Source: Planctomycetota bacterium
GTDB taxonomy: Bacteria > Planctomycetota > Phycisphaerae > Phycisphaerales > UBA5793
Reading direction: 5' to 3'
NCBI GenBank assembly: GCA_013112555.1
Contig: JABFGK010000002.1
Span: forward strand, 434,001 to 498,000
DNA: 64,000 bases
Position 1 is the stretch's first letter. Each line of letters starts with the position of its first letter. Shown one piece after another: positions 8,351 to 45,433 of this stretch. Made by a program: the position numbers and the translations under genes. Below the pieces are notes generated by a model. The model saw only the letters and a list, made by a program, of their open reading frames with translations. It had not been told where the DNA came from and searched no databases.

Positions 8351-8943
8351 CGGCGGCGGTAGGTGTTCGTCCGCCCGCCGGGCGGCGGGGGAAGACGGGG
8401 GGTGGGTCACTCATACCCGGTGGCTGAAGCCACCGGCTACGATCGTGCGCCCTGACGGGCGAAGACGCATTGCGGCCACCGGCCGGGTGCCCCGGGTTAC
8501 CCCGAGCGAAGCGAGGGAGAACCCGGGAGCCTGTGTCCATCATTAACTCAGTCGTGTGAATGCAAATCGGCCCATTTCCACGGGTTCTGCTCCGTCGTCT
8601 GCCGACGACTCCGCGTAACCCGTGCCACCCACACCCCCCTCTACCCGGCCCCACGTGTATTCACGTGGGGCTAATCGTTGCGCGCATCATGCATATGGCA
8701 GGGACCGAGGAAGCGGAAGGCCCTCGCCCCCCCGGGCCCCTCTCCCGCGGTGAGAGGGGAGTACGGAACCCGCTTACTGACGTGCGCGGCTCGTCGGACA
8801 ATCACGGGCGAGACGCCCGTGCCAGTTCGGAACCCGCTCCCTCACGGTCGCGGCTCGTCGAGCCTCCCCTCACCCTCCGCCTCTTCTCTCCTACTCTCCT
8901 TTCTCCTGCTCTCCTCACTGTTTCCCCCCTACCATTGTCTACC
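8351..8943. repeat. Repeat-rich intergenic region with several REP-like families
   Basis: No gene is evident in these 593 bases. They hold a series of short palindromes: GGTGGCTGAAGCCACCGG (about 8421-8438); a CGGGTTACCCC...GAGAACCCG unit (about 8492-8526); CCCCACGTGTATTCACGTGGGG (about 8650-8671); and a unit running from AACCCGCTTACTGACGTG to GCGGCTCGTCGG (8767-8797). Next come ACGGGCGAGACGCCCGT (8804-8820) and a second AACCCGCTCCCTCACGG unit (8831-8860). A polypyrimidine tract rich in TCTCC (about 8862-8940) runs up to the AsmA-like gene. The 8767 unit recurs inverted at 22991-23021, and the 8804 unit is the same palindrome that flanks the transposase inside valS. An open frame runs through the region into the next gene but its sequence is only translated repeats. 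Confidence 0.75.
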
Positions 8944-10560
8944 ATGAAAAAGATACTCCTCATCATCGTTCTCGTGCTCGGAATCGGCGTGGCCTACCTG
9001 ATTGCCCGCCCCCCGGCGTTTTTCAAGCAGTTTGCAGGGGCCGGGTCAGGCAAACTCGAGCAATGGATCGGCCAGTGCATCGTCGGCGTCATGGGCAGTT
9101 ATCTCACGCCCACCATCGAAATGGGTACGCTCGACTACCAGGCGCCGTACACGGTCATCATTGATGATCTTGTGCTCACGACCCGCGGTGTGAAGCAACT
9201 CGAGGTCAACCGGCTGACCATGGAACTGGCTGAGATTCCCAAGATCGGCCAGCCCATCCAGATCAAGCGCATCGAACTCGATGCCCCCACCATGCGCTTC
9301 GTCGCTGACACCGACAACGAAGCCGGCGGGTTCGTCGGCTGGACCGACCTCGTCAAAACCGATGCCGTCAAGGATCCCTCGACGGTCGAAGAAGGCAGCC
9401 GGCTCTCCGATGTCCTCGTCATGCGGCATGTGGCCATCGACGACGGCGGCTTCATCTATGACCTGAACGATGGGTCCGAGCCGATGACGCTGCGCGGCCT
9501 GGAACTGGCGCTTGATACCGAGCCGATGAGTACCGAAGAGGGTGGGTCCGGTGAAGCAGGATGGTACAGCATCGATACCACGATCACCCAGGCATCGCTG
9601 CTGGACATGGGCGTCAAGGGACGGATCAACCTCGATACGATGCTGATGGATCTGGCCGATCTGACGGTGGCCGGCCAACTCGGCGAGGCAAACTATGAGG
9701 CCCTGCCGCCTCAGATTCAATCGATGGTGCGCGAGTACGAAGTCCGCGGGCAACTGAACCTGAGCGCGAGCGGTTCACTGACCTTGACTTCGCCAATGGA
9801 ATCGACGCTGCAGGCAAACTTCGGGCTGACCGATGCGTTTTTCTCGATGGCAGACAAGGTGTTCCCGCTCGATTCGTTCGAGACGACGGCCAATCTGAGC
9901 GGATCGCAACTGAACGCGGACTATCGGGCTGCACTATTGGGTGGGACGGTGGATGGCAAGGCGGACCTGGGCCTGAGCGACCCGACCACGATGCCGCTGA
10001 AACTGACGTGGCAGGCATCGAACCTCCTGATTGAGAACACGCTCAAGGTGCTCGAGGAGGGCAAGGTCCCGAAGTATGCCGGCCGCATCGCCAGCCAGGG
10101 GACCGTGACGGCTCGTGCAGCCGCGCTCTCCGAATCGCTGTCGGGCTCGGGCACGATGAACCTCGACAACGGCCGACTCGTGATCATCCCGGTGATTGCC
10201 CAGTTGAGTGATGTCTTGAATCCCGGCGGCCTTGGCAAGACCCCTGAAGACCGGCAAAAGGCACTGTCAGACAAATTGGACGTCACATTCACCATCAGGC
10301 CGGACCGCATTCACCTTGACAGTCTGGACCTGACATCAGCAGTCGTGGCTGCCCGCGGCGACGGCGACATCTTCTTCGATACCAGACTGGCCCTGGCCCT
10401 CAACGCCGGCCCGATGGAAAAGGTGCAAAAGGGGTTGGGCGATGTCGGGAAACTGATCGGCAAGGTGACCGATTCACTGGTCAAGTACTACGTCAGCGGG
10501 ACGACGGGCGAACCGAAGGTGTCGCTCAAACCGCTTGGCATGGGGATCAAGGACAACTAG
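8944..10560 (+). CDS. AsmA-like outer-membrane assembly family protein
   Basis: 538 residues from the ATG at 8944. The N-terminus MKKILLIIVLVLGIGVAYLI is a single membrane anchor and everything after it is predicted periplasmic. The body alternates beta-strand segments typical of AsmA/TamB-like lipid-channel proteins. The C-terminal part, including a SGTMNLDNGRLVIIPV segment (about residue 402) and DRIHLDSLDL...ARGDGDI (about 455-480), fits the AsmA-like C-terminal domain. Such proteins are implicated in moving phospholipids between membranes. The frame remains open 384 bp upstream, but that part is translated repeat DNA, so the start with a hydrophobic lysine-rich N-terminus is preferred. 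Confidence 0.75.
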   Translation: MKKILLIIVLVLGIGVAYLIARPPAFFKQFAGAGSGKLEQWIGQCIVGVMGSYLTPTIEMGTLDYQAPYTVIIDDLVLTTRGVKQLEVNRLTMELAEIPKIGQPIQIKRIELDAPTMRFVADTDNEAGGFVGWTDLVKTDAVKDPSTVEEGSRLSDVLVMRHVAIDDGGFIYDLNDGSEPMTLRGLELALDTEPMSTEEGGSGEAGWYSIDTTITQASLLDMGVKGRINLDTMLMDLADLTVAGQLGEANYEALPPQIQSMVREYEVRGQLNLSASGSLTLTSPMESTLQANFGLTDAFFSMADKVFPLDSFETTANLSGSQLNADYRAALLGGTVDGKADLGLSDPTTMPLKLTWQASNLLIENTLKVLEEGKVPKYAGRIASQGTVTARAAALSESLSGSGTMNLDNGRLVIIPVIAQLSDVLNPGGLGKTPEDRQKALSDKLDVTFTIRPDRIHLDSLDLTSAVVAARGDGDIFFDTRLALALNAGPMEKVQKGLGDVGKLIGKVTDSLVKYYVSGTTGEPKVSLKPLGMGIKDN

Positions 10561-41737: not shown

Positions 41738-44700
41738 CTACACCGCTGCCAGCCGATCCAACTCACCTTTGGCATCGGCCAGTTGCTTGCGGGTTTCCTC
41801 AACAAGATGGGGCGGGGCCTTATCAACGTACCCCTTGTTGCCCAACCGCCCTTCGAGGACCCGGATCTGCTTTTCGAGTTCATCTCGACGACGCCCGACC
41901 CGCTCGGCCTCTGCCCCGGCGTCGAGTGATGATTCCTCGCCGGCCAGCCCGGACAGGGCATGCTCGACTCCCGCCACGGTGAAGGTGACCCAATCGGAAC
42001 CACGATCCGCTGATCCATCAAGAGCGGACCATTCGCTCAAGCCTGCCAGCGATTCGACCACCCCGTCGGCCGATTCGATCAATGCGGTGGTCGGCTCGTC
42101 GCCCACATGCAGCGCGATCCGACGCTTGTCGGGGACCTGATGCGAAGCCCGGATCTCCCGGATGGCAGTGACCAGTGCCTGGGCCCGCTCAAACGTCGCG
42201 ACATCCTCGTTCTGATCGGTGACAGCCTGATCAAGGCCGGCCAGTTGCGGCCAGCGTGCGGTGGCTGCCATGTCGGACGGCGGGAGTTGCACGCACGCGA
42301 TCGGCTGGACCGCCAGCGACTCGATCGGCTCGTGGAGCGTCTCGGTAATGAACGGCATGATCGGCTGGGCCATCCGATGAATCGAGCCCAGGACAGCGCG
42401 CAACACGGACTGCTGGGTCGGATCGGTCGCGATCGTTGCCTTGACGGCCTCGAGGTACCAGTCGCAGAAGTCCCGCCAGAACAGGTCGTACAGGCCCTGG
42501 GCATAGGCATTGAACTGATACTCGCTGACGGCCGTCTCGATATCGCGCACTGTTCGGGCCAGCCGGGCCAGGATCCAGCGGTCAACCAGGCGGGTCGGCT
42601 CCCCATCGGGTTTCCCGTGGCCGTCAACGGACCCGAGTGTCATGAGCGCAAAGCGGGTGGCATTCCAGAGTTTGTTGCTCAAGCGTCGGCCGATCTCGAA
42701 CTTCGGGCTGCTGTTGGCACCGATTGCCTCGTCATACTCGACCGGCATCCGCACATCCTGCGTCTGGGTCGTCATTTGCGCCAACGTGAAGCGCATCGCG
42801 TCCGAGCCTTTGGTCTTGATAATGTCGCGCGGGTCGACGCCGTTGCCCAGCGACTTGCTCATCTTGCGGCCATCGCCGTCCTGAATCATCGCATGGATGA
42901 ACACATCGTCATACGGCAGCCGCCCGAGGAAGTAGAGGTTGAACATCACCATGCGCGAGACCCAGAGGGTAATGATTTCGCGGGCAGTGCACAGAACGCT
43001 GGTGGGGTTCCATGTATTGAGGACGTCCCAGCCTTCGGGAATCTCGGTCAGAAACGCCTCGGGATTCGGCCAGCCCATGGTGCTCATCGGCCAGAGTGCG
43101 GAGGAGAACCAGGTGTCGAGGACGTCGGGGTCCTGCGCAAAGCCGAGTTCCTTCAGGGCTTCGACTAACTCGGGGATATCCCGGCGTGGGCAGGCGCAGA
43201 TAGTTGTGCCATGCTTCGCCCCACCTGTGCGATCATCGCTGGCTGCGCGTTCGATCGTTATAACGTGCAGATCGTCCGGGTACTGTCCTCTCAGGCTGTC
43301 CAGTGCGCTCTTATCCGGCGTTTTGCGCTCATCGTCAAACACCCACACCGGGATCCGGTGCCCCCACCAGAGTTGCCGGCTGATGCACCAGTCGCGGATG
43401 TTCTCGTGCCAGGACTGGAAGGTGCGGGCATAGCGCTCAGGATAGAAGGTGAGGCGGCCATGCCAGCCCTCCTCATGGTCGGTGGCACGGGCGTCTCGCC
43501 CGTCCCAGTGGGCCGAAGGCCCAGATACGTCTTCACACTCATCCGCACTATCCCTCGTCTGAGGGTTGACCGTGAACTCATAGTCTGCAGCCTGCTTGAT
43601 CAAACCTGCCTTGACCGGATTCATCCACATGTACTGCCATTTCTCTTCGAACTCCGCCTCGTCCCGCATGATTCGATCGTAATACTCGTCCTGCCAGACG
43701 CTGCCGGATGATCCACGTGCCTGGTTGATCTCATGCGCCGAGTAACTCTTAATGCTGTGGATAAGATCCGGAAGGGGATACCAATGCTTCGTGTCATTCT
43801 CCTGTTGCATCGGCGTCATGAGGATGTGTACATGGTCATGCATCACGGTCACAAGATGAATGATGGCCCGCTTCTGATGCCAATGCAGGCAAGAAGAAAG
43901 GACAAGTCGTCGCTCATCTTGGCTCAATTGCCCATTTGCACACCGAAACGTCACAAAATAAGTCTGGCCGCCTGCCTCCCAGTGGGGAAGGCTTCTTGCT
44001 CTTCTATGGAGCTGTCTTGTGACGACCCTTTTGACGGGCGAGACGCCCGTCCCACCGTCTTGCTGTGATTCTGATTTGACGGGCGAGACGCCCGTCCCAC
44101 TGTCATTTCCCCCCCACTGTTTCAACTCATCTCCCACGACCTGCTCTTTGCTCATTGCGCGCAAGGCAAAGCCGGCCAGTGAGTTCACCGGCAACTTCGT
44201 TCCCGGCAGCGTGCCTGCATCATCAAGCGACGGGATCTGTCTCGTCACGGCGACATACCACTGGTCACTCAAGTACGGCTCAATGGCGACGTGACTGCGA
44301 TACGAGTGGCCGACCGAGTGGACATACGGCTTCACTTCTTCGAGCAGGCTGTTCTCACGGAACCACTCGACAACCGCTTCGCGCGCTTCGTAACGATCAA
44401 GCCCAAGCGTGAACTCACCGCCGCCGACGTCCTCCCAGCCATACTGGTCGCTCACACACCCATCGGGAGCCAGGACGTTGATGATCGGCAACTCGTGGCG
44501 CAGGCCGATCTCCCAGTCATTCGGATCGTGGGCCGGCGTGACCTTGAGGAAGCCGGTCGCAAACTGTGCCTTTGCATCGTCCGGGTCGCCGCCGTGCTCG
44601 ACGGCCAGGACCACGTAGTCGTCTTCGATGATCGGGATTTCACGATTGACGATCGGCAGCCGAATCATTCGGCCGGCAAAGTGCTTCGCTCTCGGGTCGC

Positions 44701-45433
44701 GCGGATTCATGGCCACGGCCGTATCGCCGAGCATGGTTTCGGGTCGGGTGGTGGCCACGGTGACATGGTCATACGCCGTGCCGTCGATGACGACCGGGTC
44801 GCCGATCAGGGGATACTGGAGATACCAGAAGTGCCCTTCAACCTCGTGCATTTCGACTTCATCGTCAGCCAGCGCGGTCTGCGTGGCCGGGTCCCAGTTG
44901 ACCAACCGCTTGCCGCGATAGATCAGGCCTTCCTGAAAGAGCCTGAAAAACGCCTCCCGGACGGCTGCAGCACAGACATCATCGAGCGTGAATCGGGTTC
45001 GGTCCCAATCGCAGGAGCATCCCATTTCGCGCAACTGGCTGAGGATGGTGGACTGAAACTCGTCTTTCCACGAGAGGATCTTGTTGACGAACTCCTCGCG
45101 CTCAAAATCGGTCCGACGCTTGCCTTCCTCGGCCAGCACCCGTTTTTCGACAACGGTCTGGGTCGCGATCCCAGCATGGTCGGTCCCCGGCATCCAGAGG
45201 GCGTTACGGCCTCTGGCCCTGTGATAGCGTGTGAGGATGTCCTGCAGCGTGTTATTGAGCGCATGCCCGAGGTGAAGTTTGTCGGTGATGTTGGGCAGCG
45301 GGATCAGGATGCAGTAGGGGTCACCCAAATCGCCGGGGACGGCATGAAAAGGGTGTTTATCCACCCATTTCTGCAGAACTTTAGGTTCCTCGGCGAGTGG
45401 ATCATACGATTTGGGAAGTGCTGTCATGTCCAT
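41738..45433 (-). CDS. valS: Valyl-tRNA synthetase containing an in-frame RAYT transposase insertion
   Basis: 1,231 residues, about 200 more than expected. All ValRS parts are present: HLGHA (HIGH motif, about residue 54), the CP1 editing domain with TTRPETMLGDTAV (about 228), SDQWYVAV (389), WCISRQLWWGHRIPVW (682), KMSKSLGNGVDP (about 857), the anticodon domain, and a C-terminal coiled coil rich in E/R/L. Between residues about 446 and 652 lies foreign sequence: two GTGVSPVK repeats, a REP-associated tyrosine transposase, then DGRDARATD. The frame is preserved across both junctions. The insert falls between the end of the CP1 region and the second half of the Rossmann fold, where ValRS sequences vary. 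Whether the chimeric enzyme is active is not known from sequence. No other valS is in the window. Confidence 0.93.
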   Translation of the reverse strand: MDMTALPKSYDPLAEEPKVLQKWVDKHPFHAVPGDLGDPYCILIPLPNITDKLHLGHALNNTLQDILTRYHRARGRNALWMPGTDHAGIATQTVVEKRVLAEEGKRRTDFEREEFVNKILSWKDEFQSTILSQLREMGCSCDWDRTRFTLDDVCAAAVREAFFRLFQEGLIYRGKRLVNWDPATQTALADDEVEMHEVEGHFWYLQYPLIGDPVVIDGTAYDHVTVATTRPETMLGDTAVAMNPRDPRAKHFAGRMIRLPIVNREIPIIEDDYVVLAVEHGGDPDDAKAQFATGFLKVTPAHDPNDWEIGLRHELPIINVLAPDGCVSDQYGWEDVGGGEFTLGLDRYEAREAVVEWFRENSLLEEVKPYVHSVGHSYRSHVAIEPYLSDQWYVAVTRQIPSLDDAGTLPGTKLPVNSLAGFALRAMSKEQVVGDELKQWGGNDSGTGVSPVKSESQQDGGTGVSPVKRVVTRQLHRRARSLPHWEAGGQTYFVTFRCANGQLSQDERRLVLSSCLHWHQKRAIIHLVTVMHDHVHILMTPMQQENDTKHWYPLPDLIHSIKSYSAHEINQARGSSGSVWQDEYYDRIMRDEAEFEEKWQYMWMNPVKAGLIKQAADYEFTVNPQTRDSADECEDVSGPSAHWDGRDARATDHEEGWHGRLTFYPERYARTFQSWHENIRDWCISRQLWWGHRIPVWVFDDERKTPDKSALDSLRGQYPDDLHVITIERAASDDRTGGAKHGTTICACPRRDIPELVEALKELGFAQDPDVLDTWFSSALWPMSTMGWPNPEAFLTEIPEGWDVLNTWNPTSVLCTAREIITLWVSRMVMFNLYFLGRLPYDDVFIHAMIQDGDGRKMSKSLGNGVDPRDIIKTKGSDAMRFTLAQMTTQTQDVRMPVEYDEAIGANSSPKFEIGRRLSNKLWNATRFALMTLGSVDGHGKPDGEPTRLVDRWILARLARTVRDIETAVSEYQFNAYAQGLYDLFWRDFCDWYLEAVKATIATDPTQQSVLRAVLGSIHRMAQPIMPFITETLHEPIESLAVQPIACVQLPPSDMAATARWPQLAGLDQAVTDQNEDVATFERAQALVTAIREIRASHQVPDKRRIALHVGDEPTTALIESADGVVESLAGLSEWSALDGSADRGSDWVTFTVAGVEHALSGLAGEESSLDAGAEAERVGRRRDELEKQIRVLEGRLGNKGYVDKAPPHLVEETRKQLADAKGELDRLAAV
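43485..43508. repeat. REP palindrome, copy C (right junction of RAYT insert)
   Basis: ACGGGCGTCTCGCCCGT with flanking CCCAG. It is the inverted orientation relative to copies A and B and lies at the gene-distal end of the insert, where it encodes DGRDARAT in the valS frame. Confidence 0.85.
44033..44055. repeat. REP palindrome, copy A (inside RAYT insert)
   Basis: GACGGGCGAGACGCCCGTC followed by CCAC. In the valS frame it encodes GTGVSPVK and sits directly before the transposase sequence. It is identical over 23 bases to copy B, 45 bp away. Confidence 0.9.
44078..44100. repeat. REP palindrome, copy B (left junction of RAYT insert)
   Basis: The same 23-base element as copy A and in the same orientation, encoding GTGVSPVK at residues about 446-453 of ValS, where similarity to normal ValRS ends. 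The core palindrome also occurs alone at 8804-8820. Confidence 0.9.

Follow-up and report, generated by a model that had tools for sequence, protein, structure and literature searches.

A REP-associated transposase in frame within a valyl-tRNA synthetase, one instance of a recurrent lifestyle in Phycisphaerales

Introduction

In a 64,000-nucleotide stretch of the genome of a Planctomycetota bacterium (order Phycisphaerales; assembly GCA_013112555.1, contig JABFGK010000002.1, positions 434,001 to 498,000) – hereafter the window – the gene for valyl-tRNA synthetase (ValS) contains, in frame, a REP-associated tyrosine transposase (RAYT) bordered by inverted repetitive extragenic palindromes (REPs). 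The case is one instance of a lifestyle that recurs in Phycisphaerales; at least two transposase lineages share in it, and several genes serve as hosts. RAYTs are a known family, here in a new lifestyle. We favour, with a probability of roughly 0.7, the reading that the insert is a REPtron – an IS200/IS605-like Y1 unit between inverted REPs – adapted to life inside protein-coding genes. The anatomy of the unit, its recurrence, its fixed frame, the selection on its domain and the clustering of copies by host, with switches, are documented below from sequence comparison.

A synthetase with a guest

The chimeric gene and its parts lie in the window as follows.

41738..45433, minus strand: chimeric valS open reading frame (ORF) of 1231 amino acids (aa), with an ATG start and no internal stop; ValS equivalog models above cut-off on either side of the insert, HLGH and KMSKS present
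44105..45433, minus strand: N-terminal part of ValS (first half of the catalytic core, editing domain, up to LSDQWYV and SLAGFALRAM), aligned to residues 3–363 of T. thermophilus ValS 1gax
43478..44104, minus strand: whole guest unit, REP–RAYT–REP, residues about 444–652, from repeat analysis; boundaries backed by G060 and its insert-free sister G026
44078..44104, minus strand: 5' REP no. 1 (sense GACAGTGGGACGGGCGTCTCGCCCGTC), read as SGTGVSPV, from repeat analysis and translation
44033..44059, minus strand: 5' REP no. 2, a direct copy of no. 1, read as GGTGVSPV, from repeat analysis and translation
43574..43984, minus strand: RAYT (Y1/HUH) domain, residues 484–620, from NF047646 and a match to 4er8 with the G001 relative; predicted local distance difference test (pLDDT) mostly above 90
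43826..43834, minus strand: HxH motif His534-Val-His536, from reading of the sequence
43631..43633, minus strand: predicted catalytic Tyr601, aligned with Y115 of TnpA-REP 4er8 through the G001 relative
43480..43506, plus strand: 3' REP, inverted (plus strand CGGTGGCACGGGCGTCTCGCCCGTCCC), sense-strand reading DGRDARAT, 96% complementary to the 5' arm
41738..43477, minus strand: C-terminal part of ValS (WHENIRDWCISRQLWWGH, KMSKS, anticodon domain, tRNA-binding arm), from profile matches and the 1gax alignment

The host is an otherwise complete ValS. The profiles NF004349 (945 bits, cut-off 704) and TIGR00422 (814 bits, cut-off 612) flank the insert on both sides, the HIGH-type motif appears as HLGH at residues 55–58 and KMSKS at residues 857–861, and the editing domain is present. 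It is also the sole copy found: the search for a second, uninterrupted valS that an earlier, sequence-only reading of this DNA had called for returned none in the genome (2 contigs, 92% complete), the weaker matches being another class I synthetase and RAYT-like genes. That reading had placed a transposase in frame inside ValS, and the placement holds – the ORF is open, ValS models lie on both flanks and NF047646 exceeds its cut-off within the insert.

Membership of the RAYT family rests on the HUH motif, the catalytic Tyr and the profile NF047646 (REP_Tyr_transpos), which matches residues 484–620 at 90 bits in one scan and 96 in another (cut-off 80), bearing out the proposed similarity of the insert to Y1 transposases; the IS200/IS605 TnpA profile NF033573 reaches 15.8 bits on the chimera, under its cut-off of 55. 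The predicted catalytic set is His534, His536 and Tyr601: the sequence-only reading had picked Tyr564, but alignment to Y115 of 4er8 points to Tyr601 (EKWQY-MWMNPVKAGL). Its limits for the insert, residues 446–652, coincide exactly with the REP-to-REP unit, GTGVSPV beginning at 446 and WDGRDARATD ending at 652. Known RAYTs are free-standing genes with their own start, and this one is embedded in the ValS frame, a departure from the members described so far rather than from a family-defining trait.

The GTGG-headed REP arms that flank the domain are inverted (43480–43504 versus 44033–44057 and 44078–44100). High REP copy number in the genome, another mark of RAYTs, is found here too: the 18-nucleotide core of the window's REP occurs in 71 genomic copies at up to 2 mismatches, versus 1 for the reversed control. 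The ValS guest is the sole RAYT found in the genome with this REP family at its borders. Some nine other RAYT-like loci (L019–L029) fall into different subfamilies, and the window's REP family was absent from the flanks searched around these nine (about 1.5 kb).

An AlphaFold model of residues 1–1150 (mean pLDDT 85.5, predicted template modelling score 0.77) gives the check that the earlier reading had proposed: the ValS and RAYT parts are both confidently folded, mostly above 90, with the disordered REP-encoded linkers (residues 441–483 and 628–655, pLDDT below 50) between them. Foldseek of the whole model against the PDB returns 1gax first (E 5e-57), and the top 50 matches include ValS, IleS and LeuS, the whole-chain search not resolving the RAYT part. 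The model supports a guest that is a tethered domain leaving the ValS fold intact. That the insertion is tolerated, as had been surmised, fits a sole and otherwise intact ValS, the two confident parts of the model and the recurrence described below; from the essentiality of the enzyme and from the model, we infer that the chimeric ValS probably charges tRNA-Val while harbouring the guest. The long, disordered linkers that bracket the RAYT would also suit an intein-like release after translation, by splicing or by protease cuts within them. We hold this to be very improbable: no intein family is among the Pfam or NCBIfam matches of the chimera, nothing points to splicing, and the linkers are translations of REPs that vary between copies.

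The same loop in relatives

Relatives were read at two depths, in 121 genomes of the order (117 ValS loops) and in a wider scan of 400 Phycisphaerales genomes. A transposase sits in this loop in 20 of the 117 ValS genes, the window's included: eight are RAYTs (type I) and 12 are of a second kind (type II). In the wider scan, this ValS loop is occupied by a Y1 transposase in about 50 of the 400 genomes, and the occupants belong to two lineages unrelated to each other, RAYT and class 3 TnpA-Y1. Type II guests bear the signature of the latter (NHVH, W[TA], YV..EQ) and were assigned by that signature rather than by a class 3 profile; TnpA-Y1 class 3 has been reported mainly from Planctomycetes (Quentin 2018 PMC6006769). 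Their 12 ValS-embedded domains form one clade, apart from 15 free-standing ones (support 96/88).

The measured loop segment is 26–114 aa long in the 97 insert-free ValS (median 46) and 210–314 aa when occupied; its position between ValS reference residues 434 and 435 is partly given by construction, the reference having had the loop cut out. When the ValS of sister genomes is inspected for an insert that is present, absent or decayed, all states occur. Within the same family, the loop of G001 holds a RAYT of the same kind, those of G002 and G005 hold another Y1 transposase, and that of G003 has none. In the order, a lone translated REP persists in three insert-free loops (G025, G064, G082).

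Because the transposase recurs in the same ValS loop, single-contig assemblies (G032, G060, G067) included, chance and assembly chimerism are excluded as its origin. The 92% completeness of the assembly leaves some room for an artefact – a chimeric assembly, or a real second valS elsewhere; with same-site inserts in so many genomes and no second ValS found, its probability is close to nil. Nor is this the single odd chimera that it had first seemed, a candidate reading rejected by the scan of 400 genomes.

Three further observations concern the variability of ValS itself. The same slot holds a different, non-transposase insert of about 60 aa (AGTWRKTTGDADALE...) in L099 (G038) and L108 (G018). 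A second ValS loop, upstream of HLPFKHVFIHAMIQD, contains bare translated REPs in L105 (G060) and L011 (G002), reading TSRDREGAD..PLPDGRGSS and AEHGRPARTNE x3. In the ValS of relatives, both the length and the sequence of the stretch between WGHRIPVW and DPDVLDTW are hypervariable throughout the order.

REP ends and reading frame

Perfect inverted repeats of at least 14 nucleotides flank 70 of the 85 embedded type I copies, compared with 1 of 85 in a control in which copies exchange flanks. Applied to type II copies, the test yields 19/19, with a control value of 12/19 that is high because the copies share one REP sequence; for type II, the result shows a shared REP, not pairing. The GTGG and GTAG heads of the guest REPs agree with the GT(A/G)G head of described REPs, and in G060, compared with its insert-free sister G026, the two REPs form the limits of the insert.

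Of the 57 type I copies in which a foot could be recognised, 46 have both REP feet in the same codon phase (1/9 expected; p about 1e-33, a value that, like the other statistics given here, treats related copies as independent). The window's own type I REP is free of stops in all six frames. On this evidence the unit reads as host–linker–transposase–linker–host, open from REP to REP in a fixed phase.

Selection and start codons

Of the embedded copies, 82/85 of type I and 19/19 of type II (101/104 together) retain both the HxH motif and Tyr, and the ratio of nonsynonymous to synonymous substitution rates (dN/dS) is 0.08–0.23 in close guest pairs with usable divergence. By sequence comparison, then, purifying selection acts on the transposase domain, and its catalytic residues are conserved. 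An ATG lies within 25 codons upstream in 1/19 embedded versus 23/29 free type II copies, and in 16/83 embedded versus 13/22 free type I copies; as an upstream ATG is thus rare in embedded and common in free copies, these counts suggest that embedded copies rely on host translation.

It might be supposed that the guest is an inert passenger, the relic of an old accidental insertion, tolerated in its loop and harbouring a transposase with neither activity nor selection upon it. The disordered linkers and the surface loop are what one would then expect, and the open frame is no argument by itself, since stops cannot accumulate in an essential host. What an essential host leaves unexplained are the kept catalytic residues and a dN/dS of about 0.1; together with matched REP ends, REP numbers that track the guest, and host switching, they make this supposition quite improbable.

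Other host genes

Type I copies number 82 in the 400 Phycisphaerales genomes, and 77 of them lie within ORFs of at least 350 aa. Elsewhere in Planctomycetota, type I relatives are rarer and mostly in ORFs shorter than 300 aa, with 6/23 in ORFs of at least 350 aa; the query for these counts was itself an embedded copy and may favour embedded ones.

Similarity assigns the hosts ValS, LeuS and RdgB/HAM1. LeuS guests occupy two sites, 14/16 at the entrance of the editing domain and 2/16 near the leucine-specific region, and RdgB/HAM1 guests one region, the agreement of sites in both proteins being approximate because the references were made by removing inserts. Further hosts were named by eye, without a profile search – PurH, MiaA, Kbl, Hsp70, IleS, RarA, GcvP and a type IIG-like DNA methylase (records L251, L268, L276, L284, L290, L292, L294, L297, L301 and L305) – with two PurH records at a similar site and two records for the methylase. 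Two Sedimentisphaerales-like records (L348 and L357) have a more distant RAYT elsewhere in ValS, at a second site that immediately precedes VATTRPETMLGDT and resembles the main LeuS site in position. The loops of ValS, LeuS, RdgB and other hosts in which the guests sit look to be tolerant ones.

With several aminoacyl-tRNA synthetases among the hosts (ValS, LeuS, IleS) and purifying selection on the domain, one could imagine a RAYT recruited to help the synthetase – through tRNA or single-stranded DNA binding, or regulation – and kept by selection for that service. We give this idea little credence, as the hosts also include the unrelated RdgB, PurH, Hsp70, MiaA and GcvP, two unrelated transposase lineages share one slot, and sister species do without the guest.

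History, mobility and REP populations

On a tree of 109 type I copies, host labels cluster (23 changes versus a shuffled mean of 64), and well-supported branches force several host switches. One insertion per site long ago, followed by vertical inheritance, many losses and little mobility, would account for such host-specific clades, for the single clade of ValS-embedded type II domains, and for the congeneric guests of G154, G291 and G354, which look vertically inherited by both the type I tree and dN/dS. We nevertheless consider it unlikely. Guest presence changes 16 times on the ValS tree, 14 of these changes being forced by starred branches; the sister genomes G091 and G112 hold a type II and a type I guest, respectively, and G060 is occupied where G026 is empty. 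The ValS guest of G067 groups with LeuS guests, those of PurH and Hsp70 nest in a ValS clade, and those of MiaA and Kbl in a LeuS clade. Strict vertical descent as the sole explanation is unsupported given these swaps and switches, though the Mantel tests described below are weak.

The notion that a transposase locked into an essential enzyme is protected from loss, as inteins are, survives in part. No type I copy listed from the scan of the order contains a stop; sister species, for their part, are often without the insert or have another one, which means that the guest is gained, lost and swapped.

REP copy numbers are consistent with an active guest. Exact copies of its REP number 10 in G060, 1 in the insert-free sister G026 and 0 in two congeners, and the type II REP has 4–177 copies in 10/10 tested carriers and at most 2 in 9/13 non-carriers. 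In the source genome of the window, the type II REP (ACGAGCCGCGACCGTGAGGGAGCGG) occurs 102 times when up to 3 mismatches are allowed, yet no type II transposase is found at E 1e-15; these copies may be the trace of an earlier type II tenant. At 8803–8858 of the window, a type I and a type II REP adjoin, in frame, near the 5' end of ORF 8560–10560, probably upstream of its true start, MKKILLIIV.

Several points weigh against our reading of the insert as a REPtron adapted to intragenic life, beyond the statistical dependence among copies and the choice of query already noted. An ATG does lie close to the domain in roughly one in five of the embedded type I copies. The embedded copies are old, most pairs being less than 75% identical, and no insertion event was caught in the genomes compared, among which no two matched strains were found to differ by the presence of the insert. 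Mantel tests of insert identity against ValS distance gave p values of 0.14 and 0.41; with 12 and 8 copies they are weak, and so do not separate homing from an old insertion with many losses.

Clades specific to a host, a patchy distribution and the swapping of guests among sister species nonetheless suggest an intein-like ecology without splicing. A bolder version of the adapted-REPtron reading – a Y1 lineage turned nearly obligate intragenic parasite of essential enzymes in Phycisphaerales, relying on host translation for expression, with in-frame ends and a tethered active nuclease, homing to the same slots across species and competing with a second lineage for the ValS slot – we put forward tentatively, at somewhat short of even odds.

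A proposed life cycle

In the mechanism that we envisage, host transcription and translation would produce the guest as a tethered domain of the host enzyme, and its separate folding on flexible, REP-encoded linkers would let ValS stay active. The guest would stay active as a single-strand nuclease, its targets being the matching REPs dispersed through the genome. It would be inherited mainly with the host gene, occasionally re-invading the same slot in other species and rarely jumping to a new host gene. Selection probably acts as a filter on frame and position: an insertion into an essential gene would survive only if in frame and in a harmless loop, and would from then on be shielded from stops and frameshifts.

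If this is right, residence in indispensable enzymes answers how RAYTs avoid loss, a puzzle for elements viewed as single-copy, domesticated and free-standing, and self-splicing would be shown to be unnecessary for a nuclease to reside in an essential protein. Natural experiments are on offer in sister species whose slot is empty, occupied or swapped and in REP populations that track the guest, and these natural whole-domain insertions map permissive sites in ValS, LeuS, RdgB and PurH. There is also a warning for annotation: the 2018 survey of TnpA-Y1 proteins discarded unexpectedly long ones as gene fusions or annotation errors (Quentin 2018 PMC6006769), and proteins so dismissed may be real.

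Comparison with known systems

Among openly accessible papers, we found no description of a RAYT or transposase gene inside ValS or other housekeeping enzymes. RAYTs flanked by inverted REPs have themselves been described (Nunvar 2010 PMC2817692, Corneloup 2021 PMC8266576), and the guests share with these RAYT/REP systems (TnpA-REP, REPtrons) the HUH and Tyr domain, the match to NF047646, the two inverted REPs with a GT(A/G)G head and the many REP copies. Described RAYTs, however, are free-standing and regarded as domesticated, whereas the guests lie in frame in essential enzymes, mostly without a start codon of their own and with their REPs translated as linkers. TnpA-Y1 class 3 (PMC6006769) has the signature of the type II guests and their occurrence in Planctomycetota, but here one clade is embedded, only in ValS.

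In-frame palindromes in housekeeping genes have precedents as well. Short REPs inside genes, including those of tRNA synthetases, are known (Di Nocera 2013 PMC3733652), and Rickettsia palindromic elements likewise lie in frame within protein-coding genes (Ogata 2000, 2002, via PMC10969869). Both share with our case the in-frame placement in housekeeping genes, tRNA synthetases included, and differ from it in being short, non-autonomous palindromes (about 20–80 aa), whereas the insert here is the transposase gene itself.

There is also an ecological parallel with inteins and homing endonucleases, which likewise place a selfish nuclease in frame in conserved genes, with recurrent sites, a patchy distribution and site-specific clades. 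Unlike them, the guests described here have a Y1 fold and no splicing domain and, as far as can be read from their sequences, stay in the protein.

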